Shown: piece by piece, positions 17,490 to 49,909 of the stretch
Numbering within the stretch: the first letter of the stretch is position 1
Layout: every line of letters begins with the position of its first letter
Assembly (NCBI GenBank): GCA_022575985.1
Contig: JAKSXM010000231.1
Location: 188,501-252,500, forward strand
Source: Anagrus nilaparvatae
Taxonomy: Eukaryota > Arthropoda > Insecta > Hymenoptera > Mymaridae
Direction: 5' to 3'
DNA length: 64,000 bases
Notes under the pieces: generated by a model
What the model was told of the DNA's origin: nothing
Databases searched by the model: none
Seen by the model: the letters and a program-made list of their open reading frames with translations, nothing else
Position numbers and translations under genes: made by a program

Positions 17490-17572
17490 CTAGTAAATGG
17501 CGAGGTCTGCAAAAGTCTGGTCCATTTCCTCGGCGATGGCTTTGTACTTACTTCGTTCGTTTATCAGCTCGT
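17490..17572 (-). CDS. Tm1: Tm1 terminal exon 9d (ends ...FADLAIY)
   Basis: 83 nt with TAG at 17490-17492: [20 protein letters not shown] then ADLAIY. Acceptor TTTTTTTTAG. Muscle-type tropomyosin tails often end in a Tyr-containing segment; which tail is used in which tissue cannot be read from the sequence. Confidence 0.95.
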
Positions 17573-20500: not shown

Positions 20501-23500
20501 TTTCAAGTCCCCCGTATCTATACTCTGACGATCTGTTAAACCTACCTCTTTCAATTGACTGTCCAGAATCTTAACTTGTCCTTCGAAGGATTCTTCCCTT
20601 TGTGTGGCCTTTTTGTTATTGATGTTGAAGGTAAAATAAAATAAAAAGAAAACAAATCGAATTAGTAATGAAGCACACAGTATAAAAAAAATTAATTATT
20701 TATCATTATTGAGTTAATTATTAAAAGGTGGGTTTATCGATTAAAAAATTCAAAAAAATTAGTGTTATAAAATGCAGCAAAACGTCAAGACTTAAAGGCA
20801 TTCCCGAATAACGGTAAATTATTTATTTAACCTCCTTTAGACGAGTTGTCAATGTTTTAATTTGATTCTTGTATTCTTCCTCACGTTGGTTGGCCTGTTT
20901 GTAATATTTCAATTATTGAATTATTTTTCAATTTTTTTTCAATTTTTCAATTTTTAAATATTTAAATTTTAAATTAAGGGTCGCGTTTACTTTGATTTAA
21001 AAATTTTTTTCTGCAATTTATACGGCCTTTGTCCATGTGTATAGAATGCCCCAAATCGGCTTAATTAAGCTCAATCAAGGCAATTTACCTGCGATTTGGG
21101 CCATTCTTTACTTTTCTGGACACGAACACCGTAAATATACTATACTTAAAAAATGATTTTTACCTTTTCTTCGGATACCTCGAGTGATTTCAAGTTGTTA
21201 CCCACGACTCGTAACTCCTCCTCCAATTCAACAATTTTTCTGAAAAAATAATAGAGTCCATATTGTAAATATTTGAATAATTTTTTGTGAATTTTATTAA
21301 TAAGTCAAGCTTAATTAATTAATCTCGTTAACAATGGTAATAACAGGATGTCTACGAGATTTTTACCATCTTTTTAACAAAATCCGAAGTATGGGGGCTT
21401 TTTTCACAATACCGTATAATACAAGTTTTTTCAGACTTGTAATTTTACAAAAATACCAACTAAATAGTTTTTATAATTTTTCCTGGACCGAAAAAAAATG
21501 CGTTTCCAATTACGTTACGAATATTGCACATGATTTTAAAGGTATTATGGTTGATTTTCAGCCTCTGCAGGAAACTAACAGTAATTCAACTGTAAATAAT
21601 ATTATTGCTGAAAGCCTTGAAAAAATCTTTTTTTAATTTCAAGGGTATTTAATATACGTTAAATTGGAAAATCTTTGGAAAAAATTTAAAGATCCTGTAG
21701 ACATAGAAAGTAACGACAATCTGTTTGATACTCATTGTCAGAATTTCTACTTAAAATAAGCATTAATAAAAAGAAAAAGCATGCGAGCTGCCGCGAACTT
21801 ACCCTTCAGAAAGTTCGGCCTTTTCTTCGGCTCTCTCGAGGTCCTGTTCCATCATGACTAGTTTACGGGCAACCTACGTTAAATAGCCACACAAAACAAA
21901 AACAAAAAATTATCATAATCATGCTAACAACAAGAACAATTTAAAATATAAAAAAAATTTAATTCTTTTTATTTATTGGGATTCATGCGAGGAGTTAGAA
22001 TAATGTCTTCTTTATTAAATAAATGCAGCTTCGGTGTTCACCTTTGGTTCGCCTCCAGACTCCTAGTCGAGCAACGTTTTCTCTTTTATTATCATGAATT
22101 AGTAAAAAAAAAAAAATTTTAATATATCAAAAGAAAAAAAAACACAAAAATATACTAATATGCAGGTGACGAAAATACTAAAATTAATTAAAACAGAACG
22201 ATGCTTACGACTCGCCAGCCTCGGCACGTTCTTCTGCACGTTCCAAATCAGCTTCGACCATGGCCAATTTACGAGCTACCTAAAGTATAAAGAAGGTGAA
22301 AATTTATTCAAATAAAATATATAATTGAGTAATTGCTTTGAGGAAGTTGAGACAGAAAAAAATCCGCTTACCTACCGGAAGAAAAATTTATTTTATAAGT
22401 TATGGTAGGTAAAGGGAGTTTTTTTCAGTAAAGCATTAGGATAGTAGGATTCCACTCATCAAAAAGAAAAAATTAGTGATCACTGGAAATATAAAAATGT
22501 TAATTTCTTGTTAATCTTGCTGAATCGTCCACGTAAACTGTTAGTATAAAAAACAAAAATGCAATCACAGCGGAACTGAAAAAATATATTTTTCAGCATA
22601 TATCAGGCAAATCCAAAAATAAAAAGCTGAAATTTATATTAGGGGGCATTCATAAATTATATAACGCCTGAATGGGGAAGGGGGGTTCAACCATTTTGTT
22701 ACAATCAATGTCAAAAGAATCAGCAAAAGCCTTATGTTAAGGGAGGAGGGGGTTAAAAAAAACTTAACTTTTGCGTTACGTAATTTATGAATGACCCCTT
22801 TGCAATTAATCCTCTTGAACGACAAGGATATATTTTTGAAAGCATCAATTAAACTGCTGTAAATTGGCTCTAAGTTTTGAAAAGAAACCTTTTTATGGCA
22901 GTTAGATTTTCATGTTTAAACTACAGGCTATCCATCTCGCAAAAAAATTTTCAAAATTTTAATTTTAAAATATATTTATATGAATACACATCCAAGAAAC
23001 AGAAAAACGATTAAAATATCTTTTTTGTAGTTTATGCATGAAAATTTTGTTGCTTTAGGTCCTGTGCCTTTTCTCAATTTTTCGCTTTCATCCTTTATTA
23101 AGTAAGAAAGTGAAAGTGAACATTTTCCTCTAAGAGAAATAAATTTTTTTCTTAACGCAGAGAATATGCTCCAAAAACCGTGATTATCAATAGTTGCCCG
23201 CTAGTAAGTTTCAAGAAAAGCATTTCCAAATACATTTTTCAAAAGAAGCCAAACTTTCAAATTAAAAAAAAATCCAATGGTTCTTCTTTAATTAGAAAAA
23301 TTTTTCATCATTTGGGGAACCGTCCGTAAAATCTCAAATTGAAATACAAGCGATTAAAATTTATTTTAGGAGTACTTATCCAACTCAAGTATGTTAGCGT
23401 TTAAGTATTTAATTTGTTATATTTTGTTAACAATAAAAAAAAAATGATTTTAGAATTTTTTTGCTTCTGGAACCCCTTAACCGTAGTGTTTTGATTACTC

Positions 23501-26500
23501 TATTCATACTATCCAATTACAATTTCTCTGGCAAAAAAATTAATTATTTTTTTGTGCTTTTAAAGGCTTAAACTCGGCTTAAAATAAAACTAAAAATTTT
23601 AAGTTTAAAAGAATATGTACCAAACGCTATTACATATATTTACCAACCATCATTTGAATATTTTGCAAAATTTAAATCACATAGGGTATAAATATTAATT
23701 TAAAATTGTGTATTTAAATTTACTTATAGTACCTGGTTTTATGTTTAATAACTTAAAACGAAATATTCTTAATTTATATTAATTTTTCTTGTTTATTTTT
23801 AACCATTTTAAAGAGAATTAATCAATTTAAATGATTTTTCGTCTAATAAGTTTAAATATAATTTTCTTCAATGAAAAAAATAAATTTATTTTCTATTTAC
23901 CTCAAGTAAACTGATTTTTTGAAGAAAAAAGAGCTCCTTATTTGTCTTAAATAGAAAGTACATTTGCCGCAATAATATCAACTTAAATAATCCTTATTAT
24001 AATCCTCATTAAAAAGTTCATTTTTCTTAAAACAGTGAAACTCTAGTTTAACTCCATTTCCAGTTTTTGGAAACAAAACGAACAAACCCGATGCTACTTT
24101 ATTTTTTTAATACATTCAGGTGCTTATAAAACTAGTCTTTATTTTTATTTATTAGCTTAACGTATAATCCTTAGGTAATTTCTAAAACTTAAACTTTATT
24201 CTATAAATATAATATTCTGCTAATATAATGAACTGAAAATCAATTTAATATTTACTATTTAAAAAAATATATATGTGTTCTATGTACTTTAACGCTAACA
24301 TCTACATAAATCCTATAACACTGTAATTTAATTAAACATGCCATCGCTTCATTAACACATTTTCCTAGGGTAAAGTTTGTTGGATAATTTTGAAAATGTA
24401 AATGGAGATACCCAGCTTATTTATGACAGTTATGGAGCTAATCCTCATGCTTCTCTTGCATTTTGACTGACACAAGAAAATCCTCTTTATCGCAAAATAA
24501 TATTCAATTAAAAAAAACTTGCCTCAGCCTTTACTTTGCCCTGCAGCTTATACTGTTTTTATGATCAAAACAGCAGCAAAGAAAAAGTTTATGATAATCA
24601 AAGTTTCCTAGTTTTTATTATAAAAAAAAAGTTGAAATAATGTTAACTCTCGCATTTTTTTCATTTTAGCAATAAACGTATTATAAAATTTTGCATTGAA
24701 AGATAAATTTAAAATATAAAAAAAATCCAAAAATTATCACTTATAAAATAATTCACTCTTTTTTAATAAAAAAAAAAAAAAAAAAAAAAAAAATAATAAT
24801 AATAATAATAATAATTATTAATAATTATAATACAATAATATAATGTAGCACCTTCTTTAAAAAATAATAAATTTAAATAAACTATTTATAAAAACCACAA
24901 TTTTCATTAACCCAAAATTAATTTTATCACTTAAAAAGGCACGTTTTTTTAAAACACAAACAAGCACCAATGAACACTTGGAAATTTAATTTTGATTCAT
25001 CCAAAAATCGACTCGTTCAACGAGTAGTTAGATAATCAAATATTCTTTAAGCACCACAAATACTAGTAAATATAATAAAACCCTATTGAAAATAAAATTT
25101 AACAAAAACTAATCGCAAGTAACAATTATAAAGCACTTGTTTTTGATATTTTTGGCAACTGTAAATATAAATCCTTTAAAAAAAAAAGTATTTATATATA
25201 ATATATAATATATACTTTATGTTGTAGCACAAACAACGCAAAATTATTATTATTGACTTGTCGTTCATTTGATTAATTTATTTTTTGAATGTTAGGCACT
25301 TTTTTGACTAAAGACTAGGAACCATCAGTTATTATATCGTCACACTAGAAAAATTATTTTTTTCAATATCTGTTGGTTCGCAAACCTCATCATATTTTTT
25401 ATCAGCTTCTTCGGCAAGGAATCTTGCTTCTTTTAATTGATTTTCTAAAGCATCCATACGTTCTTCATCTGCCAAACTTCGGTTTTCAAGAATCTTCCTT
25501 GCACTTAAAAGATATTAAGATTAATGAAAAAATAATAATAATCATTAAATTATATTATTAATTGTTTAATTAATATTTGTTTTAATCTGCCACACTGTCT
25601 GCTACTTCAGCACCTAAAATTTTTAAATTTATATAGCTCGCATGACAATAATTGATCAATAGTCAGAAATTAGAACTGGCTAATATTTTTATTTGAAAAA
25701 TTGTGATAACATAAGAATGCTGATGTATGATCAATTATTTATCTAACTTAAAAATTAAAGGGAAAGGGATGGAAGGATTGAGATAAAAATTAAATTTTTT
25801 TTCTATTTTCCCTTTGACCCACCTCTTCATATTTTTTGTCAGCCTCTTCTGCAATAAGTTTAGCTTGTGCCAGTTGTTGTTCTAGTAAACTCACTCGGTC
25901 ATCCTCCATATTTGTGCGATTTTCAAGGGCCTTACGGATCCTAATATTTTTGAAAGACACGCAATAATTGTTATAAGTTTGGAGAAACAATAAAAAATTT
26001 TTAAAGGCTTCGGGAAAATATGGATATTTTTTTTTGTTTGTGGAAAGTAATTTTTTAAAGATAATCATTTCTAGAAATAACATTAAGTTTGCATTTTTTA
26101 TTTTTAGTGAGTTACTTTTGGCACTGATAAGGAGGTGCAATTAAAATATTATTTCTTTTGTTAATTGTGCTTTAAATATTTATTTCAAGTAATGATGAAG
26201 AGACAAATAAGAAATATTGAATTAAAAATTTTAAATAATTAATGTAGAATAACATTAATTTTTTTGATAGTAGTGAAATAAAAATATAAATAAATAAATT
26301 ACTTTCCATAGAATTTGAAAATTCCAGTTTATCATTGACATCTTGGCAAAAAAATAATTAAATAAAAGTTATACTTAATTCTTGAACTTTCAATTACTTT
26401 ATTTGTAATTTATTAGTAATTATTAGCCAAAATGCAATGACTCAATTTTTGATAAAAATTTGTTAAAAGAGCAAATTATGTAAATCAGCCAAGAGAATCC

Positions 26501-29500
26501 TATTTTTATACATAGTTATAATATATAAGAGTAATTTTTCTTTTCTATTTAAAAAAATTAGAATTATTGATAATATAACATGAAGGTTAAAAATTTTTTA
26601 TTGATACATGAATCATAAGTATATTTTTAAAGATGCTGTTTAATAAACGTCTCATTTAAATGTTTAGAATTAATAAGCATTCCTTTTGTATATTTTATTG
26701 TTTATAATAAAAAATATATTTATTTAATAAAAACAACTTTCTATTTTAACAAGTTTCTCTAAAATAACATTGCAAAATTCAGTACTTAATTAACATGATT
26801 TATGTAAATATTAAATAAAAAACCTATCCAAATATATAAATTAAAAAAAAGTTAAATCCTTTCTTAGAAAAAGAATCTTCATATATGTAACTGATGATTT
26901 CATCAACAACCTTGGGGACAAAACCGTTGCTATGTATACAATATACATTTATAAAGAAAGATTTTGGTTTAATTTAAAATCAAAGAAACCTTGAATTTAA
27001 TATAAAAACTAAAATCATTTAAAAATAAGGATTTTCTTTTTTTAAGAATATCAATAGTAGGCTAAAAAGACATTGCGATTAATCATATCTTTCTGTTGTT
27101 TTGTTACAAGAGTTGATCGAAACTAGATGTTAAGCTTCATGGCTATTTTATTTTAAGCTTTTATACTTCATAATAAAGAAAAGAAGTAACAATTGGAATA
27201 TTTCTGATAGAATATAGTCTAAAAATTGTTCGAGGAAAAAGCATCTGCATCAATATTCAACTCGTTCCTAAGGTTAATTTAATTCAATGAGCACATTTGA
27301 GATTTTGAATTTATCTTTGCATATTTTCCTAACAAAATCAAATACTCGTTTAATTAATTTCAAAATTTTTACATAAATTTGTTGAACCTTAAGTTAAATA
27401 ATAGAAATATAAGATTCTCTTGTTGAATTTACCTTAAACTAAGAAATTAGTAAAAGATTAATGTTTATGTAAGAATGTATTAACAAGTTTACCGTTCACT
27501 TTCATCTGCAGCTTGAGAAGCCTCCGCTAACTTAGCTGTTGCTGTGGCTAAACGTTCCTCAGATCGTTCTAAATCTTCTTCCAGAAGTTGGATACGTCGG
27601 TTAAGGGCAGCAACTTCAGATTCAGCCTAGAAAAAAATAAAAATAGTTGAATAAAAATTATTTTTATAAAAGCGAAGTTATTTTTTTTCTACTTTTTGAT
27701 AAATTATAAATTAAAAAATGTTTGTATTCCTTTGGATACTATTAAGTATGATTGATTTCATTGATTTTTCGTTCACCGGTTTTACGCAATAATGAACGCA
27801 ATTTATGAAGAACAATTAGTTAAGTAAAATAAACAAATCAGAAGCATTCAATTATCAGTTGAAAAAGCTCAGAATAAAAGAACAAAATTAAAAATGACAA
27901 TAGTAAAAATATATTATTATTTATATTTAGTAATAGTTATAGCAAAACAACTACATGCACCATTGATTTTTTACTTAAAAAATAAAAAAATAATGATAAT
28001 AATAATAATAATAATAATGACAAACGCCCGGAAATCCGTGGTGTACGCAAAATGATTCTTTGCTGTCCATTACAGAATTTTATTTTATAGTTATTATTAT
28101 CATTTGAAGTCAGTGTAGGTATAAAAATACATAATTAAAAAGGATAAAAAAATTAATTTTATATTGACAGGTGTTTATCCTTGTATAATTTATTAGCCTT
28201 TACTAATTCTAATAATTTTATTTACCTATGATCATTAAAAAACAGGAAGGGAAGTGTTTATTTTTTTCTATATCAAAAAAGATAATGAAATATAACTTTT
28301 TACTCTTGAAAAATTCAGGGAAAAAGTCTTCTTAAAATTTAAAAGTACATATAATTATTTTAATACATATAAATTTTCAGATGATAAGAGTATAGAATGT
28401 AAAATTGCAGTATTTTTTTTTTATATACTTTTTTTTCTTCATTTATCTCAAATTTCAATTCTCTTTTAAAATATTTATGTAGTCTTATTAAATTACAAGA
28501 AATCATGAATTTTCTACTTAAAATTCCTATGAAAAATTTTTTGAAACATTCTCTATTATTTATCATGTGGAATAATTTTAAAAAATTAAAAAAGCGAAAT
28601 CAAATATGATTATATTTTTTTATCTAGTTTAAGATAAAGCAATAATAATTAAAATGAAATAAGGAACAAGGTGATAGTATTTTTAAGTGTTTTTTATCGA
28701 TAATTATTTCAACAATGATGAAAAATATTTTTTCTACTCAACTAATAGAATTCCATATTAAAAAAAAAAATAATAATCAATCTTGAAATTAATTTTCCAT
28801 TTATGGATTTTTTATCCAACTAAAACTTACAATACTCATTCAGTCATAAAAGATTTAATTTGCTGTCATTGTTATGATCACTTTAATCTTTCAAACCACG
28901 CCTTTTTTACGCTTTTTAGAGGTTATGATAGTTAAAACTTCAACAAAATATGCAAATATTCGACGAAAAACTTGCATACTTGCATAAACGGAGTCGTGCT
29001 CCAAAACATAATTGGTTATTTATACCTGTAAGAGAAAATGGAAGACTTTTTTTATACAACTAGACTAAGACCCAGACATTTATTAAAGAAAATCTTTCAG
29101 AGTTTTTTGCCGGTTAAATCCATGTTAAATGTTTAAAAAGTGGGATATGAAGAAAAAAAAGAAGAAAGCCCGAAAGTTCGTCATCGTCGCCGTCGTTGTC
29201 GATAAGGTTAAGGGGCCCCTCCCCATTACCTTAAATTCTCTGGACAAATACACATACAAGATACAACAAACTACATGACTACTCTCTTAACTCTTATAAA
29301 TTCTTTCTCCTTGACTTTTCGTAGGCGGCTACAAAAGTATATCAAATTTATATCATAGAGATGCTAATTTTAATTTTAATTTTCATACACAACAAAAAAT
29401 AATTTCTTTCTTGGCTACATTTAATGAATTTAGCAAAAACGTCGAGCACTCACTTCCTCGCGTCGAAGCATCTCAACCTGGAGCCGCTTGTGATAATCAC

Positions 29501-32500
29501 CGCATTCGTCCTTGTATTTCTCCATTTCTTCTTTAGTTTGCCGCATTTTCTTCTTGAGCACGTCTAATAATGTACCTCCTTGGATTTGAGTCGTCATCTT
29601 TTTTTGTTATATGTATAATACAGTAATAAAAATCACTTGCAAAGGATATTTTGTATTAAATCGATCGTACAAACACGCACAAATACACTAGAGCACCAAA
29701 AGGAATCCTAATGGTATACAATCGAGTTATAGTTTTCCGGTTTACCGGCTTTATACAATACAATATGACGCTCTTTTATTTATTTTATTATTATTAATAA
29801 GAAAAAAAAATAATATTCAAAGGCACTTGACTAACTTAAGCCATACACTATTATTTATCAAAGCTCGTTTTCAACAATAAATCAAGCAACTTATTGTGTT
29901 CATTTAGCTTCACAAATTTTTAAGTATATTTTGCAACAATTAAAGCGTTATCTTTAAAAATTCTCTATCTCTTTTTGACCTTATTGACATGAAACTTATT
30001 TATCTTAATGGACAATGTTAAGTTTAAATAATTTTACTTGTAATAACCGAAATATTATGCAAAAATACTTAAAAAATACAAAAAGGAGCGACGTGTTAGA
30101 GCTGCCTTTACGACCACTGGCTGCTCTCTCTCTTTCTCTCTCTCCTAGTATTCTCAATACAATATGGCGACTCATGGGGTGCGCTAAATACCGCATATAC
30201 GCAGCACAATGGAGTTAGACCCCTTTTTATTTTTCTTTATATACAACGATCCATCCTAACCATCGAGATATCCTAAAAAGTACATGTCATTGATAAAACA
30301 ACTATATTACTATTTTCTTTACATTGGTTTGGTACAATAAAGGTACATTTACATATGGTCTTCTTATGCTTCTTACTTCTTATGCTTCTTAGCGCTAAAA
30401 TTCAAACTTTTTTTCGTTTTTTTAAATTCTGCACCATAATTTAAAATTTTTTAATTAAATAATGTATTTTTACAATGATTAAACTTAAATAACAATAAAA
30501 AAATTATTTTTCATTAAAAATTACATATAAAACCGTTTTTTTACGATTGTTCGAATAACATAACCTAACTTTCTATAATACTGATAATTGCATTTAAGTT
30601 ATATAAAAATTTATTAACATGGTTTATTTGATTAATATTAACTAAATTTATAAAAATAAATATTTTTCAGTATGTAAATTAAGAAAATAAGAGAATTAAA
30701 TAAAATTAATTTGAATTTTTGCGCTAAGAAGCATAAGTAGACCATGTAAATGTACTCTAAGAATAAAATTAAAATGCAATAAAAATTTCAAACTTCAATT
30801 GAAAAATTTTTTTAAATATGTACTCAAAATTTAATTTTCGCAGATTGTAATGAACTAATTTTGAAAATTCAAAATCTTTATTCCATTGGTTATAATTATA
30901 ATACGCAATTAATTATAATTTGCATAATTATTAACAAAATATGATCTATGATTTAACCTGATAAAAATGCATTTTTAATCGCAATAAATCCGCTGAAAGC
31001 TCGCAAAAATAGAGTGAAAATAAAATATATTGCAGTTTTTAATATTCACCCCTCTCCCAGAAAAGATTTCTGGATACGTGCTTGTCTATAATGTAATAAT
31101 TATGGGAAGTAAAAACTTATTACAATAAAATCTGAGAATAAAAAAGATTCCAAATTCACAATTAAATAATTAGATTTTTTTCAGTAGCTTTTTTTAGATA
31201 AGAATAGTATATTTACGGCTCGTGTCCAGAAAAGTAAAGAATGGCCCAAATCACACGTAAATTAGTTCATGGTAAACTGCGATTTGGGGCATTCTTTATT
31301 TATGGACAAGGGCCGTATATAAAATTTTTCTGCGGCAGTAGCAAGAAATTTCGATTTTCTCGGCCGCGTAGCATCCAGAAAAGTTCATTCTATTATATTA
31401 TTTGGTCCGCCATATTGGGAAATCAAAAAATATAGTGGTGTGAAAAAATGAATATTTTCACCCATAAAAACGTTTTTCTCAACCTCAAAAACCCCCCAGG
31501 TAATTGAGAAACTTGCTTTGTTAGTGCTTTTAGGTTCGCCATCTTGGAAAATCGGAAAATATTTAAATAACCTTTTTGGGTCAATAATATTATGAATGAT
31601 CACGAAGATTTTGAACTTAGAAAATGCATAACTGGGTTGAATTTCATCGTAAAATAATAATTTTATTTTAAATCAGTTAATTTTTCCCTGTCAATTTATT
31701 TCATTAAGAAAAAAAACTATTTTAATGAACTAAAATTTACTTTTCAAGTCAAAAACTATTTATAGCTTCAAATAGCAGGATTTATTTGAGACAGTTTTTA
31801 TTGGTTTTTGACGTGTAATTTAAAATTTAGTAGATGAAAATAATTTTTTTCTTGAAGAAATTAATACTCAGGAAAAAATTAATCCATTTAAAACAAAATA
31901 TATTATTTACGATGAAAATATTACATATTTTAAGTTTAGAAACAGGCTTTTTTAATAAAATTGCAATATTTGTTAAGACGAATTTTAGCAAAATCTTAAA
32001 TTTTCGATAACTTGGCTAAATTTTATCGTAAAAATAAAAGTTTCTTTTTCTTCAGGAGTGGTTTTTCCCTGTAGCCCAAGATCTTTATCTATTTCTATAA
32101 ATTTTTTAAAAATTCATTTGTAAAAAATTAATTTTTCTGATTTTGATCTCTCAGTCAGCCATAAAATTGACTAAAAGCTTTTTAGATAAGCAGATTCAAG
32201 TTACTGCTATGAAAATTCGAAAATAAAAAAATTATTTCCAAAAAGTTTTTAAAGTCAGATTTCGTCATTTTTTTTTTGCTTTTCGCTGGTTCAAGCTTGG
32301 TGTGTGCCCACTCTATTGGAATTCTAATGGAAAAATTCTCGGAAAAATTCTATACAATTTTTTTACGAAAAAAATGTAAATTTCTCACTAGGATTCCATG
32401 ACTGTCTCTGCTTCCAAAGGAAAAAAAATTACCATGTATATAAAAAATATAAACTGGGGGCAATCTTCATCTGTATATAGAGCTCATGCATAAAGGCACA

Positions 32501-35500
32501 TGAGCGCGCGCAACCACTGACTCCCACAAGTTTTGATAAAATACATATACAATGATACTAATACTATACATGCATGTTGGTAATAATAATAATATTAATA
32601 ATAATAAAACCTATAATAATTACGCATTTCGACTCTCTTTTTTGACTTTTTTCCGAGCTTTTTTCTATAAAATCAGGATTATTCCGTAGGGCATGGCTCT
32701 CGGGATGGCACAATAGTATGAATATTTTTTTTTAAATTTATTTAGATGTAAAATAAAAAACTTAAAATCTTATTTTTAATATGAAAAATAATAATTGCAA
32801 ATAAATTTCTTTTCAAGCGCACATTTGGTTTGGCTTAAAAATTGTTTATAAAATAATAAATGAGCCAAATGCAGGCCAAATGTGAAGTCACGATTGAAAT
32901 ACGCGTAATACAAGAGTAACTTCCCCGATCGGGTATTTAATGCTGGAGCATAGTTAAGTATCATATTATAATAAATGATCACGAAGGTATAGTATATTTT
33001 AAATGACTGATTAAAAACATGAAATTAAAGGTAAATGCAAATAAATGTGTCGCATAAATACAGTTAAAAGTCTTTCGTAAATAGGGAATTAAATCAAGAG
33101 ATGCACTCTTACCGGTATTCCCAACAAAAAATTGAACAAAAAATAATAATAAATGATAAAAATGTATGAATGTGTTATCAGGTATACCAATTTTTTGCGT
33201 TACCACAACAGTATAAAAAATGAAAGCATTGACAAATAAGTGACAGTGGCAAAAAGGTCGTAAAATATTATAATAATAATAATAAAAAAGTAATGATTCT
33301 GATACATAATAATTTATTATAACAGAAAGAGGCTTTTTGAAAGGACAGGATGAACATGCCGCACCCTTTTAACATTTAAGTTAGTTTTCAAAACACGTGT
33401 GAAATTCATATGCACCCAGCCAGGAAACCAATATATTGAATAGAAAAACAATTTATTTTTACATCCTATATTTACCGCTTTATCATAGATTACATTCAAG
33501 CTCTGGCTCAATAGCTAAATAATTATGTGTGGACAGTATTAAATCTTCAAACAGTGTGAAACTGCATAAATTTGTTGTATTCAAACTTTGAATTCTATTG
33601 AATGCTTCATAGTAAACCTATTTTTAAGTATATTTGAACAAAAAGAATATAATTTTATAATCTAATCACCTAATATTATTTTAATGCATTTTCTAAATTC
33701 TTGTTTCTGTATTAGTTTTTAAAGGGAAAAGTTTTTAAAGTTAATACTCGAGTTAATAATGGCTTTAAATTTATTGCTTGTTATTTTAGAAAATAAATAG
33801 CATGGATGAACATGTCAATTTGAGTCAAGTATATATATCTATTTTACAATTTAAAAGCTTATATTTTTTTTATGCCTAAGTTAATTTTATTAAATTATTG
33901 AAATTGATTAGTTTTTGCATTTGAACTAAAATATTTTGAAACTTTTCATTTTCATTCACTATTCATAAATATTCAAATTGTATTTGCAAATAGATAAAAG
34001 GGACACAAATAATAAGGCATAATTTATTTTGTCAAAAACTAAAAAGAAAAAAAAAAACTCTCAAGATAGCTTCTGTATTTTCTCACTTATTTAGAAAAGA
34101 AACTTTAAACTGCGAATAACTATTTTTACAGATATGCTGGTGTTCTTATATGTATCTTCAATCATTAAAATAAAAAGTAAAGAATATAAACAAAGAAAAT
34201 TAAAGTAAAAGTATATATACTTTAACTTAAAAAATTTTTTGCTTGCATCCAATAAAACTCATGAGAAAATTCCTAATTAAAGCTCAGCGTTTTAAAATGA
34301 TATAATACCATTTTTAAGGTGCTTTTAATATTCTAACACAATATTATTCAATACTAATCATAAGTACGTTAACCATCATACTAACCCTTTTTAATTGATT
34401 ACTGGTAAGATTTTTAAGCTCATTTCTAATTAAATTAAACTTCATCATGGTATCACTTGAAAATATCGAAAATCCAAAAGCAAGACCAGGATAATCGGCA
34501 CAACGCTTTCTTCTCCTAGCTTCTCTTTCAGATTGTATTTCAGTTCGTTCGCTTGGACATCTCAGCCTGATCAACTCAGCCATTTCAGGATCTTCCTCGT
34601 TAATTGTACTCTCTTCATCCGAAATGCCATCACCCTGAGCTCTTGCGACAGCGTGCTCAAGCTCAGGGCTTTGAATATCTTGTTCTTCCAAATTATAAAC
34701 ATATTTCCATTGCTCTGAAGATTCATCATCGTTATCGTTATCGTTATCATCTTGGCCACACTGCGCGGGCCTTTCATTATCAATAAAATGATCTGGAGCA
34801 GTTTCTTTGATTTTTGGAGCACCAATTATTTGCCTTGGTGACGATAGATTTATGTTAAAAGTATTAATTTTTTTTTTAGGCGATGACTTTGCTCTATAAT
34901 TTTGTAGGTTAGATGAATTGGCAATTGGTTCCCCGATGGGGCCACACTGCGCGGGTCCACCATCAGGAGATAAAGAGGTACTGAATGAACTGTTATTGTT
35001 GTTTGTTAGTGACTGCGAGGTCTGAAGTTGATCAAGGCGCCGGCGAGTCGTATGTCGAGGATGATGTTGATGACCACGTCTTCGAGTATTTGAAGTTTTT
35101 GTCACGGACAATGGTTCCATGAGTCTTTTTAAATTTTCTTGCTATGTACTTATTTTCTGTTATATTTGTCATCGGAATTGCCGTTATTTTAACTTCGTGG
35201 GTGTTAAATTACCATAAAAATCGCTAAGGATACTGTTGTCGATATCGGGGGCAATGTTATTATTACTATTATATTTTTTTATCTTGAATCATCTTGAATT
35301 CGTATTTCGTCAGCGCATCAGCTGAGCCACTCACACAACCATAGAAGTCGCCATCTTTTTTTAAATCTTTTATATTCTACAAGTACTATTTGATTAAATT
35401 GACGCTAGATGGCGTAGTAATTCGTCGCTATGGTAGAAATTTTATTTTCTAGAGCGGGAAAATTAAAATTTAAAAATTCGTATCTTAATAAAAGAGTGCG

Positions 35501-36507
35501 GTGCGGTATGTACGATGCATGAGCAACGACTACTGCTTGTATTAACGTGGAGAGAAAGAAGGCGAAGGTCGTTTTTTTGAGACGATGACGAGAAGCTACG
35601 AGATGGGGCTGGCCATATACGCGGATTTAGATTGAGAATATAAACATATATGCCGGAAAGATGAAAATAAGTAAAAGTAGTATCGAACGGAAAATTTTTC
35701 GAGATCGGGAAATGTAAAAAATAAATAAAATAAAGCAATAATAAAAAATATTTGTGAAATATTTATATTTGACTCCCACATTATGAATGACAAAGAATTT
35801 AGTTGAAAATGTTGGAATAAGCTCTGAGTTCAAAAATAACTTGTATTACATTGCTTAAATATAAAAATAGTTTTTTTTGAGTAAAAAAATGAACGTAGAA
35901 ATGAAATTCAAAAAATGAATAGCTTACACGTTAAATTTGCCAACGTCATGGAATTCATAAAAATATTACGAAAATTTCTGTACTACTTTTTTATGTAAAG
36001 CAAGCACCTTGTAATAAAATTGATTTTGATTTTGTAATTTTCTATTTTTGCAAATATTTAAAATATATAAATCATCAAAAAGTAGAAATTAAAATAATGA
36101 AATGTAGTTTTTAAGTCCAAAAAATGGATATAATTTGTACTTACATTTTGAAGGGCTTTATCTTTTTCTTCGAGCTTAGCGTTAACTTGCATTAAAGCTT
36201 CCTGAGTCTGGTCAAGTTCATTTTCGATTGTCTGGATCTTTTTTTGAAGGGCTCGGGCTTCCTCTTCGGCCTGTATTATAAAATTTATCAATCATCGATT
36301 TCTACATAATAATTTGTTAGTACTGTGCCTATATGGGTCAAGCTCAAAAGATAAAAGGGACTGAGTTTGGAAAAACTAAATCAATTAATTCACCTTCTCA
36401 GCTCGTGCATTAGCATCCCGAGCTTGTTGCTCGCAGAGCAATGCACGGTCCATTGCATTGTCCTTCTCCAATTTCATTCCCTGCATCTTTTTCTTGATTG
36501 CGTCCAT
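17490..36507 (-). CDS. Tm1: Tropomyosin 1 locus (whole gene, three starts, alternative exons)
   Basis: Tropomyosin is the two-chain coiled coil that lies along actin filaments, gating myosin in muscle and stabilising actin in non-muscle cells. Exons on the minus strand give, in order: exon 1 (114 nt), 2 (126), 3 (134), 4a/4b (118 each), 5a/5b (71 each), 6 (76), 7a/7b (63 each), 8 (70) and one of four last exons (83, 83, 80, 83). Lengths of alternative exons are equal and all phases fit. The long form is 284 aa, the canonical length. A second start (29597) gives a 252-aa short form, and a third (35120) adds a 245-aa disordered head (449 aa). The heptad-rich sequence ([20 protein letters not shown]..., [20 protein letters not shown]...) is unmistakable. 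Three promoters, pairwise exon choice and four polyadenylation regions match the Drosophila Tm1 type rather than the simpler Tm2. Introns hold several MITEs. Confidence 0.97.
17835..17914 (-). CDS. Tm1: Tm1 terminal exon 9c (ends ...FTELVG)
   Basis: 80 nt with TAG at 17835-17837: [20 protein letters not shown] then TELVG. One codon shorter than the other three tails (283-aa long form). An AATAAA occurs at 17748-17743 on the minus strand. Confidence 0.95.
18028..18110 (-). CDS. Tm1: Tm1 terminal exon 9b (ends ...FVELYDV)
   Basis: 83 nt with TAA at 18028-18030: [20 protein letters not shown] then VELYDV. Acceptor CTTACAG. AATAAA lies only two bases after the stop, so either the 3' UTR is very short or another signal is used. 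Confidence 0.95.
18111..18987. other. Tm1 between terminal exons 9a and 9b
   Basis: 3' UTR of the exon 9a transcript and intron sequence. AT-rich, no other feature recognised. Confidence 0.4.
18988..19070 (-). CDS. Tm1: Tm1 terminal exon 9a (ends ...TLHDIQNM)
   Basis: 83 nt including TAA at 18988-18990: [20 protein letters not shown] then HDIQNM. This tail is the type used by non-muscle/embryonic insect tropomyosins. An AATAAA on the minus strand lies at 18967-18962, about 20 bases after the stop. Confidence 0.95.
19071..19705. other. Tm1 intron, no other gene
   Basis: AT-rich intron between exon 8 and the first terminal exon. Open frame 19247-19435 is chance. Confidence 0.4.
19706..19775 (-). 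CDS. Tm1: Tm1 exon 8 (last common exon)
   Basis: 70 nt: [20 protein letters not shown] then RLE and one base (G) of an Asp codon. Acceptor ...TTCTAG, donor GTGCGT. Every one of the four last exons begins with AC or AT to complete GAC/GAT (Asp). Confidence 0.97.
19776..20425. other. Tm1 intron, no other gene
   Basis: AT-rich; nothing recognised besides the MITE that starts at 20426. Confidence 0.4.
20426..20512. mobile_element. Small palindromic MITE in a Tm1 intron
   Basis: Left end GGGGTTGAAATAAATGTATC pairs with right end GATACACTTATTTCAAGTCC(CC). Only 87 bp long, with imperfect arms of about 22 bases. No target duplication was assigned. Confidence 0.6.
20546..20608 (-). CDS. Tm1: Tm1 exon 7b (mutually exclusive)
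   Basis: 63 nt, 21 codons: [20 protein letters not shown] then E. Acceptor AACAAAAAG, donor GTAGGT. The two versions differ in charge and in the presumed troponin/actin-facing residues. Confidence 0.95.
20832..20894 (-). CDS. Tm1: Tm1 exon 7a (mutually exclusive)
   Basis: 63 nt, 21 codons: [20 protein letters not shown] then E. Acceptor ...AACAG, donor GTTAAA. Same length and phase as exon 7b. Confidence 0.96.
21015..21147 (-). repeat. Hairpin repeat 'GAATGGCCCAAATC', copy 1 (Tm1 intron)
   Basis: Minus-strand copy of the multi-copy hairpin family. ACGG..TTCGTGTCCAGAAAAGTAAAG and GAATGGCCCAAATCGCA are followed, after a short loop, by GATTTGGGGCATTC and ATGGACAAAGGCCGTATA. It sits only 17 bp downstream of the exon 6 donor. 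Confidence 0.75.
21164..21239 (-). CDS. Tm1: Tm1 exon 6 (constitutive)
   Basis: 76 nt, acceptor TTTTTTTCAG, donor GTAAAA. Completes the split codon and reads [20 protein letters not shown] then VSEEK. Highly conserved tropomyosin segment. Confidence 0.97.
21240..21802. other. Tm1 intron
   Basis: No other gene. The open frame on the plus strand at 21334-21636 is most likely chance: it has no homology that I can see and no GT/AG logic on that strand. I cannot exclude a transposon fragment. Confidence 0.35.
21803..21873 (-). CDS. Tm1: Tm1 exon 5b (mutually exclusive)
   Basis: 71 nt, acceptor ...CGTAG, donor [26 protein letters not shown]... followed by LSE and a split Gly. The last codon is GG|A, giving Gly where exon 5a gives Ser (TC|A), both completed by exon 6. 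Confidence 0.96.
22209..22279 (-). CDS. Tm1: Tm1 exon 5a (mutually exclusive)
   Basis: 71 nt, acceptor ...TTTAG, donor [26 protein letters not shown]... followed by AGE and a split Ser. Equal in length and phase to exon 5b. Confidence 0.96.
22643..22799. mobile_element. MITE with 'GGGGCATTCATAAATTA' ends
   Basis: Left end GGGGGCATTCATAAATTATA and right end (reverse complement GGGGTCATTCATAAATTACG) form inverted repeats of about 25 bp around a 157-bp element in a Tm1 intron. The same ends occur at 56192-56269. No target duplication could be assigned with confidence. Confidence 0.7.
24770..24830. repeat. Poly(A)/(TAA)n microsatellite
   Basis: A run of more than 20 A followed by (TAA)8-like units and TTATTAATAATTA. 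A likely site of length variation and of assembly error. Confidence 0.9.
25386..25503 (-). CDS. Tm1: Tm1 exon 4b (mutually exclusive)
   Basis: 118 nt, acceptor TTTTAAG (AAG type), donor GTTTGC. Completes the split Arg and reads [20 protein letters not shown]...ADKKYDE. Same coiled-coil segment as 4a with different surface residues ([20 protein letters not shown] against [20 protein letters not shown]). Confidence 0.96.
25823..25940 (-). CDS. Tm1: Tm1 exon 4a (mutually exclusive)
   Basis: 118 nt, acceptor ...ATTAG, donor GTGGGT. Completes the split Arg and reads [20 protein letters not shown]...ADKKYEE. Same length and phase as exon 4b, 320 bp away, so the two are exchangeable. Confidence 0.96.
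25941..27492. other. Tm1 intron, no other gene
   Basis: Uniform AT-rich intron sequence. I see no second coding exon, repeat family or RNA gene in it. Confidence 0.4.
27493..27626 (-). CDS. Tm1: Tm1 exon 3 (first common exon)
   Basis: 134 nt beginning GCTGAATCT after ...TTCTAG and ending ...GAACG|GTAAAC. Encodes [20 protein letters not shown]...AADESE plus two bases of an Arg codon completed by either exon 4. All three starts splice to this exon. Confidence 0.97.
27627..29453. other. Tm1 intron, no other gene
   Basis: AT-rich, with a (TAA)n run near 27988-28018. A less AT-rich patch at 29165-29230 (CGTCATCGTCGCCGTCGTTG...GGGGCCCCTCCCC) stands out and might be a splicing or promoter element for the nearby short-form exon. 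Open frame 28360-28566 is chance. Confidence 0.4.
29454..29597 (-). CDS. Tm1: Tm1 alternative first exon (short, cytoplasmic-type start)
   Basis: ATG at 29597 opens 48 codons: [20 protein letters not shown]...VEMLRREE, followed by a GTGAGT donor in phase 0, joining exon 3. It replaces exons 1 and 2 and gives a 252-aa product, as in the short non-muscle forms of insect Tm1. AAAAAAAG just before the ATG may be leader sequence. Confidence 0.95.
30098..30215 (-). promoter_or_regulatory. Candidate promoter of the short Tm1 transcript, GAGA tract
   Basis: About 520-600 bases upstream of the ATG at 29597 lies a less AT-rich island. It contains a CT-rich tract CTCTCTCTCTTTCTCTCTCT (30124-30145), which is GAGAG on the transcribed strand, followed by ACAATATGGCGAC. 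GAGA tracts bind Trl/GAGA factor and mark paused promoters in flies. Placement is suggestive only; no TATA box or start site could be fixed. Confidence 0.35.
31206..31600 (+). repeat. Hairpin repeat 'GAATGGCCCAAATC', copy 2, with downstream GGTCCGCCAT unit
   Basis: Starts GTATATTTACGGCTCGTGTC, then the hairpin (GAATGGCCCAAATC ... GATTTGGGGCATTC), GGCCGTAT and TTTTTCTGCGGCAGTAGC. It continues with GGTCCGCCATATTGG and GTTCGCCATCTTGGAAAATC units. The full ~390 bp is nearly identical to 57398-57800. It lies in the Tm1 intron upstream of the short-form exon. Confidence 0.8.
34386..35120 (-). CDS. Tm1: Tm1 alternative first exon: 245-aa disordered head (Tm1-I/C type)
   Basis: ATG at 35120 opens 245 codons ending ...[16 protein letters not shown] exactly at an AGG|GTTAGT donor, phase 0. 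This is the phase needed to join exon 3 ([11 protein letters not shown]). The head is low-complexity and polar: Arg/His-rich start, N/S-rich stretch, acidic DNDNDNDDE run, then a more conserved-looking block [19 protein letters not shown]...[13 protein letters not shown]. As known from Drosophila, the Tm1-I/C isoform has a long disordered head on a truncated tropomyosin rod (about 440 aa in total) and acts with kinesin-1 in oskar mRNA transport. The computed product here, 449 aa, fits. Two PAQCG motifs (residues about 57 and 118) come from a repeated 14-bp DNA core. A separate intron-nested gene is the alternative, but the in-phase donor argues against it. Confidence 0.85.
35121..36144. other. 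Tm1 intron and probable 5' region of the head-exon transcript
   Basis: No other gene. The stretch 35270-35350 is less AT-rich, and on the minus strand contains AAGATGGCGAC (about 35357-35347), similar to a motif often found just downstream of metazoan start sites. It could be the promoter/5' UTR of the transcript starting with the 35120 exon. Open frames at 35463-35833 look like chance. Confidence 0.35.
36145..36270 (-). CDS. Tm1: Tm1 exon 2
   Basis: 42 codons, phase 0 at both ends: [20 protein letters not shown]...KDKALQN. Acceptor ...TACAG, donor GTAAGT. Used only with exon 1 in the long form; skipped when the 29597 or 35120 starts are used. Confidence 0.97.
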
Positions 36508-36537: not shown

Positions 36538-36904
36538 CTGAAAAGAAAAATGAATTTTTTTAAAATCTTTTCTTTAGAAATATAATTTTTTTAATTCTCA
36601 TGACTTATAGTCGGTCAGTTGGTTTTATCGGTCTCGGAAACCTACCTATTTACTAATTTATAATCTTTATGAAATGATTTATGATTTTTCACTAGCTAAG
36701 TATATTACAGAAAAGCACTATTTTTTTAAATAGAGTAATATTGAAAGAAAAGGCAGTTTGCAGTCAATATTATTATTCTACTAGCGGTCAATATTCAATA
36801 TAATGAAAATATTCAAATTTTGAGCGATCTTCATTGTCCCTCAGTCGCATTTGCCAAAATAATCTTTTTTAAGTCCCGTTTAAGAATAGTGCTATTCTGG
36901 TATA

Positions 36905-37259
36905 GCGATCTTACTCAACACGAAAAAAATTGAACACATAACTTTTGAACACCGAAATTAAAACACAGAAAACTCAACACAGTATATTTTTAACACTAAT
37001 TATTGCACACGAATTAAATTAAACACAGAATTTTCCAACACATTTTATTTGACACAAATTAAACACAAATAACTGAAATTCAATTAGTTTTTACATAATT
37101 TGCAAAAAAAATTTAATTTTTGTGTCGAATAAAATGTGTCAAAAAAATTTGCGTTGGATTTAAATGGTGTGCAAAAAATAGTGTTAAAAAATAATGCGTG
37201 TTTTATCTTCGGTGCTCAAAAATGATGTGTTCAATTTTTTTCGTGTTGAATAAGATCAC
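36905..37259. mobile_element. TA-flanked foldback MITE with 'CAACACG' ends
   Basis: Left end GCGATCTTACTCAACACGAA and right end (reverse complement GTGATCTTATTCAACACGAA) are inverted repeats. The pairing runs on through AAAAATTGAACACAT and GTGTGC/GACACA blocks, so most of the 355 bp is an imperfect palindrome. Flanked by TA (36903-36904, 37260-37261), which fits a Tc1/mariner-type target. ACACA/ACACG motifs recur throughout both arms. Confidence 0.8.
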
Positions 37260-39260
37260 TACTGCATATTGCAGTTAAGTCGTGATTTTAAAAAGTATAA
37301 GGGCTGTTTAATTTCAGTTAATTTTGGAATCGTCTGTAAACGTTGAATTATGGCTGCATAAGCTATTGAAAATTGAAAAATTCTGCTCAAATCGCTTGAA
37401 AGAAAAAAAAGAAATAATGAATACAGAAATTAGTATTTCTAATTTTATAAATATAAAAGCAAGTATTTATAAATTCCCAAGAAAGTTTAATGACGTAATT
37501 TGATTGAGAAAAAAATAGAACGTCGAAAAGATTATTTTTCATTTTTTTATTTTTATTAAATTTTATTTTTTTCGAATTCCAGCAGCAGAGAACAAATTTA
37601 GAATTCAAAGTTTCTGATCTAATACGCATGCGCGATTTTATATTTATAGAAAAAGGCATTAGCTGATGAAAAAATCTGGATTAAAAATAAAAATAAAAAA
37701 AAGAAAAATAAGAAAAAAATTGATGTTGCTCCAGATATAAAATTACTTATAAAAAGTTTTATTTAAAATTGGAGATTTTGCCTTGAAAAACGTTCCAAGT
37801 AAGGAATACACCTTGACACTATTGACGTGAGAAAATTTATAAAAAATAAAATTGTCATCTAATCGAATAATTTTGATCTAATTTTACTTTATCTATTTAT
37901 AAAAAAATAAAAAATCATCTGAAAAAACAAGTTGTGCGAGTAAAAATATTTTTAGACGATGTACAAATTTAGATTGACTCGTGCTTGAGAAAAAAATGAT
38001 TATTTAAATTCTGATAATCTAGAAAATAAAAATTCTCGTTGATTCGCTGAGACCATTTCAGGCCGCATTCGTTAGCCTGGTGTCCCCTTACATTCGCATT
38101 TGACACCTCCCCCACAGATGATTTATTATTTTTTATTTTTTATTTTTTTCTTTATTTTTTTGATGATTGCATAAAAATGTAAAATGAAAAATAGGTCATT
38201 GCCATACTTGTTAACGATTTTTAACAAGAGTAATTTTTACATCACAGGGCAAAATTTATTAATGTCATTTTTTATAATATTTTTTTATTTTTCTGATATT
38301 TCAAAAAAATAAAAATTGCTTGAGACGAAAAATGCAAGAAAATTTGTAAAAAAATTTAATCGTCTTTGAAAAATATAGTTTTAACTAGGTAATTAGAGTT
38401 AGAGTAAGAGTAAAAAAAAAACAATCACGTTGTGGTCACTTGAATTCAAATCCTAACACTCGCGACCTCTGTAACACTGAATTTAAAAAACTTATGGCAA
38501 TAAATTAAATTCTCTGGTCAGGAATTTCCTTGGAAAGTCAGAGAATTAAAAAAGAAAGAAAGTAAAATTAAGAAAAAAAAGAAATAATTTCTTTAATTAT
38601 CACCTTTTTTTTGCACGTATTCAACTGTTGAGAGTTTATTCTCGACTAAGTTGGTTAAATCTTGCCGAAAACCTCGCGAGAGTTACGAACCACGAGATCT
38701 CCCACCTTCTTTATTTTAGGGAAGCTTCGAAAAACACCAACACTATCGTACGTAAATGATGACTTTTCTGAAGTTTAATTTTATTTTACTTTTATCCTCT
38801 TTTTGCACATTTACGATCTTGTCGTGCTTGTAACTTAAACTTAACCCCCCCGAAGACTTAATTTTTCTAAAAGTAAATTCAATTTTTTCCTCTCTCTCAG
38901 TCGCGCATTTTTATCGAACATAATTTAAAATATCTTTTCTTTGTCATGTCGATCTTGTAATTTTATACTCCTGAATTATTATGACAAACTTATTAACAAA
39001 CCGGTTAAAAACTCTGAGGACTTCAATTTCTAACGAAAAGTATTCAGCTAAATTTTATTTCTCATATAGAACAATATGCAGTAGAAAATTTTTGGAGCCA
39101 ACGATTAGGAGATCTATCATTTTGAGAATCTAATTTGGTAGCTAATTCTGTAAATGGCAATTTTTTAAAATAAAGGCTGTTTAAAGAATTTTTTTTCCAA
39201 GCGCACAAGTCCAAAGGCAAATTACCAGTAAAAAATGTTGCTGAAAATTTAAATAATCAT

Positions 39261-40711: not shown

Positions 40712-43700
40712 CTAAAACATTTATTACTATAACAATCACTCTTCCTAAATCCTCATTTTTTTTAATAACTTACTCTTATCGTTGAATCGTCAATGTATCC
40801 GGAACTGTCGGGATTGCTGCATTTGTCACTGTTGAGCGTTTGCGGGGGGTTCAAATATTTTCGCCTAGTAGTTAATAATAATTTAAATGAAACTTAAATA
40901 AAACATCCTGATTTTAATGAATTGGTCTTACCTGTACATTATGAACCCGAGACTTCCAACTGTGCTCAAAAGTATAACCATGGCTAAACAGCTTCCTGTG
41001 ATTGCTGCTATTTCAGTAGCGCTCGTATTGCTTTCGTGGCTATCCTTTATAACGTTATTGCTGTTGTTGTTGTTATTATGTCTAATGCGATCGTCTCCAT
41101 AAATTTGATTTCTTTGTAACTCGTTGCTGAATGTACCTCTTGCGCGGCCTAACCTTGTAGCATCGCTCGATCCACCTTCGAAATATAAATTTAATCATTA
41201 CTTGTTAGTTTTTATGGCTACACATTTTTATGACTAATCAATATAGTACATGTTCGTCACGTGTAATGCAATGCCGATTGATTTTAAATCTCCAATTTTA
41301 GATATGAAAATAATGACCATCTCTATTTTATTTTTTTCCTCGTCTATTATGACACTGCAATGATAAAAAACTTTGCCTTTTATGAATTAAATTAGAACAA
41401 TGTTGTATACAAGGGATTCTACGTTAACTGGGCCCTCGTTCGACCCAAGTGTCGCGGAAATCGGTGAAAATTATTTTTCTCCCTGAATCTAATTCTCGAT
41501 TATTTTTTGTCTTTTGCTGCCAAAAAATTGTCAACCGAAGGTTCGTCTCTTTTTTGGTCCCTCATTTTCTTTCCCGTAATATTGATCTTAAATTTTTTGT
41601 TTTTCCATGCACTACAATACACTAAATCTGGTGAATAGTTACCAGACTTACAATTAGTTTGAATTATAGCGATTGCTTCAAATTTCAATAAATTAAATTA
41701 TTATAATTTTCAATTATTATGCGAAATTTTTCATTTTTAGGCTTTTCCTGTCAACCAATAATTCTGACTCGAGTTTTGGATTCCCGTATACTTTTTTTAT
41801 GGAAAAATTTTGACGAAAAGAAAAGAAATTTTATGCGTGAAAAAATTTTACTTATATTTTGAGATTTGGGTAAAATTTTAATTTTTGAATTATTCACATT
41901 TTCCATTTGGATGTTAATATCTAATATTTTTTTTACGGGAGTCTATTATAGTCTTAGGAAATCCGTTATCACTGGATTTTTTTAATCTGCTACTTAAATT
42001 TTGAAAAATTTTGCATCAAAATATAAAAAAAAAATTATTTTTTTTCTTTTTGTGCTTTTGGATGTATAATACCTCATTTTTTAAAACAAAACTATATTAA
42101 TTTTAGGAAATTAATTATCACTCAATTTTTCGGAACTGATATCGGAATCCACGAAAATTTTTGCTGTAAAAAAATAAATAGTATATTTACGGCTCGAGTC
42201 CAGAAAAATTATGAATGGCCCAAACCACACCTATAAACTGTGATTTGGGACACTCGTTATTTATGGTCAAGGACCGTATAAAATTTTTCTGCGGCGGTAG
42301 TGAGAATTTTCGAGTACTTTAGTGGCTACTGTCCAAAAAACTCAATTTTTTTGTTGAGGTAATATAGGATTTTTTGTGGGAGTTTTTTTATATCTCAGGT
42401 AGAAACGAAAAATGGTGAAAATTTTGGAAAAATTTTATGAATATTTGCTATTATTTGAGAAATAAGTATTTAAATAAGTTTTTTTTATATCTAAAAATTT
42501 TCCAAAAAGAGTTTCGTTATTAAAATTTGCCAAAAAATATTGATTGAAATGGCTGATTATGAAAAGTCATTTTTTGAAATTACTTAAAATTCAAATACAA
42601 TAAAAAAGAAGAATAGTAAAATTAATCCTACAAATTTTGTAAATTAGTCAAGGCGCCAGCAATGTTAAATGCATCCAAAAATTTTATCACCACGAGAATG
42701 GAACCACCTCAGTGAAACGTATGTATTTTTGATCACTGAAACCGATTTGAAGGTTTCATTTATTTTCGGATGGTCAGTTTTGAGTAATGAACGCTATATC
42801 ATAAACAATGGGTAAAAATTTGCTAATTGAACCTATTTTTGTTACCCCAGTAAGGTTTTCGGGGTCGCTGATCAGGATTTTAAAGAAAGATTTTTAAAAA
42901 TCAAAATGGTGGACTCAAAATGGCGTATTTCTAACCTCAGGAATACCGATTTATAATGTTTTAAGCATATTTACGATTTCTACCAAGTTTTTTGGACCAG
43001 TTATCACGATTATATAAGGTCATATTTTTAATTATCTGATTATTAAAAATGTGACCTCAGATTTTTGATCACCGATCCCAAAAACTTATAATGCAAAACA
43101 TTAAATGCTTTAAATAGCATTTATTGCCGATTATGAGGTTAGGAATCCACCATTTTTAGCTTTTTATTTTGTAAATTAATAATAAGACCTCATAACCGTC
43201 ATAACTGGTCCGAAAAACTTACTAGACAACGTAAAAATGCTTAAAACAGCAAAAATTACCGTTTCTGAGATTAGAAATACGTCATTTTGATTTTTAAAAA
43301 TCTATCTTCAAAATAGTGATCAGTGTCCCCAAAAACCTTACTGAAGGTACCGAAAATAGGCTCAATTAGTAATTTTTTTAAAGAATTAACCGATCTTGCT
43401 AATTTTTTGCCAACCTTTTATGATGTAGCGTTCAAAACTGGCCATCCGAAAATGAATGAAGCCTTTAAAATCGGTTTCAGTGACCAAAATTACATATACG
43501 TTCACTGAGGTGGATCGATCCATTCTCATGCTGATAAAATTTTTTGGGATGCATTTAACATTGCTGGCGCCTTAACTATAAATATACAAATGAATAAATA
43601 AATGTAAATATAATTATAAACAAAAAGTTAGTAAATTTTACTAAAAAATTTTGGTTATACATAAATTTTTTTGTTGCGTGTATTTACTAAGAGAAAGTAA

Positions 43701-48554: not shown

Positions 48555-48562
48555 AACAATAG

Positions 48563-48830
48563 TATATTTACGGCTCGAGTCCAGAAAAGTAAAGAATGGC
48601 CCAAGTCGCACGTAAATTACCTTCCGAGGCGAAGCCGAGGATGGTAAACTGCGATTTGGGTCATTCCTTATTTATGGACAAGGCTCGAATAACATTTTTC
48701 TGTGTCTGTGGCGAGAAAACACGTCTTTTTTGGACGCGTAGCGTCCGGGAAATACCTATACGTGCTTTCTCGACGCAGACCAGAAAAAATATTCTCGCTC
48801 CCTCTTTTTTCGAACTTCGAAACTTGATTT
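48563..48830 (+). repeat. Hairpin repeat 'GAATGGCCCAAGTC', copy 5
   Basis: TATATTTACGGCTCGAGTCC, AGAAAAGTAAAGAATGGCCC, CCTTCCGAGGCGAAGCCGAG in the loop, arm TGCGATTTGGGTCATTC, then CAAGGCTCGAATAAC. Continues with GTGGCGAGAAAACACGTC and a GACGCGTAGCGTCC palindrome. Confidence 0.8.
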
Positions 48831-49568: not shown

Positions 49569-49909
49569 CTGTTAAGAAATTAGTTTATTTAAATTAAAGT
49601 AAAAAATTATTTTAAAAAATGGTATTTTAAAACTTATGTTCAAATCAAACCTCTTGGGTGTATCAAGTTTCAGCGATTGCCGCTAGAAGTAAAGAAAAAG
49701 TGGGAGGCGCTGAGGCGCACATCCACCACTTCTCAAGCGAAGATTCAACCAGATTCAACCTCTATACATATAGGTATTTTATTATATAAAAGTAACAAGA
49801 AAATAATTGGGCGATTCATCAATTTATTTCTTGAATTGGTGAATTTCGGATTAAAGGTGTAATTATTTATATTATTTAGTGTGTGGTATTTTGTCAGAAT
49901 CTGAAAAAC
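49569..49909 (+). promoter_or_regulatory. Probable promoter / 5' UTR of the SMYD4-like gene
   Basis: A less AT-rich block at 49670-49770 ends in CATATAG|GTATTT, a possible splice donor. An acceptor-like TTTTGTCAG precedes the first coding ATG by 12 bases, so a spliced 5' UTR is likely. Transcription start not identified. Confidence 0.35.

Follow-up and report, generated by a model that had tools for sequence, protein, structure and literature searches.

The tropomyosin gene Tm1 of the wasp Anagrus nilaparvatae lies on the minus strand of a 64,000-nucleotide stretch of DNA (contig JAKSXM010000231.1, positions 188,501 to 252,500), here called the window and numbered from its first letter. A 245-codon exon at 34386–35120 is very likely an alternative first coding exon of this hymenopteran Tm1 gene, encoding the head of a Tm1-I/C protein with a predicted kinesin-1 adaptor role. 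The frame, its phase, the homology across the junction and the conservation were computed directly; disorder and helix are predicted, and splicing in this wasp, binding to kinesin, an RNA cargo and inhibition of the motor are inferred.

The coding part of the head exon (MEPLSVTK...SNQLKR) was identified from its frame, its homology and its relatives. It opens with an ATG at 35120 and runs through 245 stop-free codons to 34386, directly followed by the predicted splice donor GTTAGT (34380–34385), as a preliminary description of this DNA had proposed. The nearest in-frame stop on the 5' side is the eighth codon upstream of the ATG. When the 64-kb window was simulated 200 times with a first-order Markov model, the longest frame from ATG to stop had 101 codons on average and 162 at most. 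The observed frame exceeds chance, because no simulated frame had 252 codons or more. The GC content is 0.40 in the head exon and 0.26 in the intron toward exon 3.

The head exon sits between the muscle-type exons 1 (36394–36507, MDAIKKKMQ) and 2 (36145–36270) and a first exon with the start MTTQIQGG (29454–29597), which we take to be non-muscle. Each of the three alternative starts (head, muscle and probable non-muscle) finishes in phase 0 and can thus be joined to the one phase 0 acceptor, at 27626, of common exon 3 (27493–27626). With the same later exons, the predicted proteins have 449, 284 and 252 amino acids, respectively, the first being exactly the length given earlier for the spliced head product. 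The canonical muscle and non-muscle tropomyosins thus have everything from exon 3 onward in common with the head isoform, which replaces both of their N-termini, MDAIKKK (exons 1 and 2) and MTTQIQGG.

The end of the head was aligned with Drosophila Tm1-I/C, as the preliminary description had suggested, by searching PDB sequences with phmmer. The head alone had one significant match, 7BJS chain C (E 3.2e-7), with the last 31 residues of the head (215–245) on residues 2–32 of the chain. 23/31 aligned residues are identical, and the first mismatch probably stems from a tag on the PDB chain. The second PDB match, the sortase 4ux7, was not significant (E 0.47), and against Pfam the head had nothing better than a YqgQ-like match below threshold (E 0.27). 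When exon 3 was added to the head, 76 ungapped columns aligned with 7BJS chain C (E 1.2e-32), passing straight across the predicted junction QLKR/AESEV. The next-best matches, 7BJG and 7BJN, carry the same Drosophila product name. Among the ordinary tropomyosins listed for this query, the best stretches begin at residue 237 or later. The Drosophila protein, also called atypical tropomyosin or aTm1 (7BJS, 7BJG, 7BJN), therefore enters exon 3 at the same residue as the wasp model, and it uses the same type of exon 4b as the wasp gene has.

In 7BJS, Tm1-I/C is described as bound to two kinesin heavy chains (PMC8247605), and the published kinesin-binding construct comprises Tm1 residues 252–334 (PMC10948360). 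An internal methionine of the D. simulans protein P0239 lies exactly 281 amino acids before the junction. Counted from it, the G of GRSIF is residue 252, which agrees independently with the first residue of the construct. Judged by sequence alone, a counterpart of this kinesin-binding segment, which spans the head end and exon 3, is present in the wasp model.

Relatives were collected in three protein searches scored on the head part only (E ≤ 0.01), which returned 759, 662 and 388 proteins. The best 120 of each search were analyzed, together 347 distinct proteins, and counts of relatives refer to these. After the head junction 165/347 continue into AESEV of exon 3, 167 have valine, 13 have another residue and 2 end. 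Valine is encoded by GTN and so fits a splice donor that was left unspliced. In the best 120 of the first search, 108 continue into AESEV, 104 of these with 203–205 amino acids after the junction. The junction is in phase 0 both in the wasp sequence and in the gene models of relatives, in line with the earlier proposal that the donor phase joins the head to exon 3. The ungapped alignment over the junction and the 165 continuing relatives likewise bear out the assignment to Tm1-I/C.

Named proteins listed in the first search are hymenopteran (bees, ants, wasps and a sawfly) except for P0001 of Aedes. Those in the second are dipteran (mosquitoes, sand flies, gnats, fruit flies and Drosophila), and those in the third come from ants, bees, wasps and the lacewing Chrysoperla carnea (P0300; Neuroptera). 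Among the matches listed, identities to the 245 residues of the wasp head include 223 in P0002, 145 in P0106, 138 in Copidosoma and 137 in Xylocopa. The best matches point to Hymenoptera and perhaps to a chalcidoid, the latter not being claimed because Copidosoma and Xylocopa score almost alike. Hymenopteran NCBI models named 'tropomyosin isoform Xn' (Bombus, Apis, Camponotus, Copidosoma and Cephus) have the same head type, the same junction and the same kinds of alternative last exon, differing from the wasp mainly in the variable middle of the head; Camponotus P0057 has 449 amino acids, equal to the wasp model. The wasp frame is thus the counterpart in Hymenoptera of an isoform already described, and for many bees, ants and wasps automated annotation includes it. 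The head exon had been called hidden; NCBI already models it in many Hymenoptera, and hidden holds only in that none of the names listed says Tm1-I/C. The warning that annotation could call it a separate hypothetical gene was justified: the names under which relatives appear include 'hypothetical protein', 'golgin-84', 'nucleoporin GLE1', 'homeobox protein 2-like' and 'mediator of RNA polymerase II transcription subunit 1'. The practical point is that many head-carrying proteins have misleading names in databases.

Two kinds of unusual gene model were seen among the relatives. In Bombus P0089 and P0090 the head is joined to another short last exon (NLTMHDRPTKDTYCIGLLYGDNG) instead of exon 3, giving head-only models that lack the rod. 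The Aedes albopictus model P0001 carries the conserved head block twice, perhaps a duplication in the assembly or in the model.

The head has three parts. Codons 1–30 (35031–35120) form a basic N-terminal block, codons 31–170 (34611–35030) a variable linker predicted to be disordered, and codons 171–245 (34386–34610) a conserved block that includes LRCPSERTE and ends in the 31 codons that match the Drosophila chain. In an alignment of 47 rows the invariant positions were confined to the two ends: R15, G16, H17, Q18 and H20, with R27, in the first, and the block D177–R245 in the second, where about 60 residues before the junction are conserved. Compared with P0002, the closest relative listed, 30/30 residues are identical in the first part, 119/140 in the linker and 74/75 in the last. 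The preliminary description had pointed to the LIRNELKN block near the junction as the part most likely to be conserved; the alignment agrees, but the N-terminal motif RGHQHHPR had been overlooked.

The motif (K/R)RGHQ(H/Y)H occurs in 314/347 relatives and plain RGHQ in 328/347, the Drosophila proteins P0234 and P0239 included in both counts. Among the 33 without the longer form are variants such as RGHQNHPK, as well as proteins that, over their first 70 residues, start differently or later. RGHQHHPR itself is N-terminal in the long forms of D. simulans and D. ananassae, as in the wasp head. That (K/R)RGHQHH is a hallmark of Tm1-I/C heads is our own observation and is not taken from a paper. 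The string GHQHHPR did not occur in the literature searched, and the search results themselves gave nothing on the head motif or on Tm1-I/C outside Drosophila.

Between these ends wasp and Drosophila diverge. The middle of the head cannot be aligned between them, and the wasp head has 245 amino acids against a probable 281 in Drosophila Tm1-I/C. The wasp linker contains paired PAQCG motifs (codons 56–60 and 118–122), which P0234 and P0239 lack. At least two AQC motifs are found in 163/347 relatives, as in the wasp head, and none in the two Drosophila proteins, the lacewing protein or Bradysia P0157. The net charge is +6 over the first 30 residues and −12 in the middle. A GC-rich 17-mer, GCCCGCGCAGTGTGGCC, which encodes the paired PAQCG motifs, occurs twice in the head exon (34754–34770 and 34940–34956, the second copy with one mismatch) and nowhere else in the AT-rich window at up to two mismatches. 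Gene conversion, or a signal at the RNA level, may be the reason why the two copies are alike in their DNA.

AlphaFold2, run with the 47-row alignment, predicted a long disordered head, as in Tm1-I/C. Helices were predicted at 178–186, 189–206 and, with confidence, 222–242, and no structure was predicted before residue 178. By ten-residue block the mean pLDDT was 84 for 221–230 and 89 for 231–240; it lay between 43 and 65 in the other 23 of 25 blocks.

Properties of Drosophila Tm1-I/C suggest what the wasp protein would do. The fly protein is reported to add a third, antiparallel helix to the tail of the kinesin heavy chain when it binds there (PMC8247605) and to recruit kinesin to oskar mRNPs (PMC5286366). 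Binding to this tail and to RNA and inhibition of motility are described for it (PMC10948360, PMC5286366). Its inhibition of kinesin motility is reported to need the N-terminal region together with the AMB domain of the tail, and Tm1 252–334 alone is reported to leave the kinesin tail unperturbed (PMC10948360). The fly isoform is also reported to be needed for basal mRNA localization in follicle cells (PMC9606379). Given the shared junction and the almost identical kinesin-binding segment, the wasp protein would be expected to function as in the fly. A transcript starting upstream of 35120 would bypass both the muscle exons 1 and 2 and the probable non-muscle first exon, joining 34386 directly to 27626. 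In its product a tropomyosin coiled coil would come after the long disordered head, which is conserved at its two ends. As in the homologous Drosophila complex, the head end and the exon 3 helix would pack antiparallel against two kinesin heavy chain tails. The wasp protein may then act as both adaptor and brake of kinesin-1, a subunit resembling a light chain, in mRNP transport.

We considered whether the isoform is real and, as a tropomyosin extended at its N-terminus, mainly forms filaments or associates with actin in this wasp instead of acting as a kinesin adaptor. The rod exons, in common with the other isoforms, would fit such a protein. However, the head isoform lacks muscle exons 1 and 2 and the non-muscle first exon, and the part adjacent to the junction, included in the construct of the kinesin complex, ranks with the most conserved. 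Furthermore, fly Tm1-I/C is reported not to accumulate on the actin of the egg chamber (PMC5286366). A mainly filament-forming or actin-associated role, in place of one as kinesin-1 adaptor, is unlikely.

Alternatively, the frame could be a separate nested gene, read unspliced through 34386 to yield a small stand-alone disordered protein. The frame does stay open for 13 more codons, to a stop at 34346–34344, and unspliced products are found in several databases (P0002, P0106 and P0108). Against this, the 167 relatives with valine have it exactly at the junction, with unrelated sequence beyond it in those inspected, a further 165 run on into exon 3, and the crystallized Drosophila protein is continuous over the junction. 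A nested gene was rejected on the conserved junction and is highly improbable. Least probable of all is a relic, a head exon decaying or unused in the wasp lineage; the wasp block departs from the alignment consensus in places (NLTS for NIMG), but the start, the donor and the frame are preserved, as are both conserved ends, and the conserved ends are 104/105 identical to the nearest relative listed against 119/140 in the middle.

Several observations weigh against a Tm1-I/C head spliced to the tropomyosin rod as modeled here. The donor GTTAGT carries T, a non-purine, at +3. Another residue follows the junction in 13/347 relatives, and 2/347 end there. Relatives are for the most part models from automated annotation, a species often contributing many isoforms, so that counts over the best 120 of each search do not rest on independent samples. 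Drosophila Tm1-I/C is given as 441 amino acids in all (PMC10948360), which, less the probable 281 of the head, leaves about 160 beyond the junction, where the wasp model has 204; its tropomyosin domain has been called short (PMC5286366). None of the 165 relatives that enter exon 3 has 160 amino acids after the junction; 144 have 202–206, 6 have fewer than 150 and 15 have more than 220. Exon skipping was tried as an explanation of the 160-residue Drosophila C-terminus, and no combination was compelling. Since the lengths differ, the pairing of the last exon with the head in the 449-residue model is provisional.

The remainder of the tropomyosin gene follows exon 3 on the minus strand: exons 4a (25823–25940) and 4b (25386–25503, the type found in Drosophila 7BJG chain A), 5a (22209–22279) and 5b (21803–21873), 6 (21164–21239), 7a (20832–20894) and 7b (20546–20608), and 8 (19706–19775). 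Exon 7b is a second exon 7 behind exon 7a with a weak acceptor (AATAACAAAAAG), and isoforms of Bombus and Apis contain a comparable exon. Four alternative last exons were found, ending in ...LHDIQNM type (18988–19070, the end counted from 27 codons and a stop), ...FVELYDV (18028–18110), ...FTELVG (17835–17914) and ...FADLAIY (17490–17572).

Elsewhere in the window, palindromic self-complementary repeats with the look of hairpin or inverted-repeat transposable elements occur at 432–813, 14534–15121, 31642–31917, 36903–37261, 42636–43590 and 55661–55924. A dispersed repeat family has pieces 68–91% alike at 31203–31590, 57400–57800, 48558–48752, 42177–42313 and 21019–21148, one copy lying in the intron directly after tropomyosin exon 6. 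An open frame on the plus strand (49880–50878) contains a MYND zinc finger (Pfam E 1e-6) and may be part of a SMYD-like gene. On the minus strand, 9159–11387 holds two long frames of 204 and 472 amino acids with no Pfam match at E 0.01. Nearby is a 237-bp repeat, 97% alike between its copies (7565–7801 and 11227–11462). The two long frames may be mobile-element genes.

What comparison would add to the fly work is the two conserved fixed points in the head and the presence of the head in a bee genus with reported oskar loss. The two short head stretches alone are common to fly, lacewing and wasp and so are natural candidates for the inhibitory or RNA-binding activity. In the fly the N-terminal region is reported to be required for kinesin inhibition (PMC10948360), and within residues 1–251 the deep conservation narrows the candidate part to two short stretches. 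Tentatively, and with confidence a little short of even, we propose that the Tm1-I/C head is a two-point regulator of kinesin-1 that has been present since at least the common ancestor of Hymenoptera, Neuroptera and Diptera, independent of oskar. The basic N-terminal RGHQHHPR and the LRCxSERxE... segment directly ahead of the kinesin-binding helix would be the sole fixed points of a disordered linker, one of them carrying the motor-inhibiting (or RNA-binding) activity.

Both conserved head ends are intact in four Apis species (A. cerana, A. florea, A. dorsata and A. laboriosa), whereas oskar is reported lost in Apis mellifera (PMC8662646). This suggests, short of proof, selection for something besides oskar transport. 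If the loss of oskar is genus-wide in Apis, a general role in mRNA transport or in kinesin regulation, comparable to that reported in fly follicle cells (PMC9606379), would be the likelier selected function of the head.
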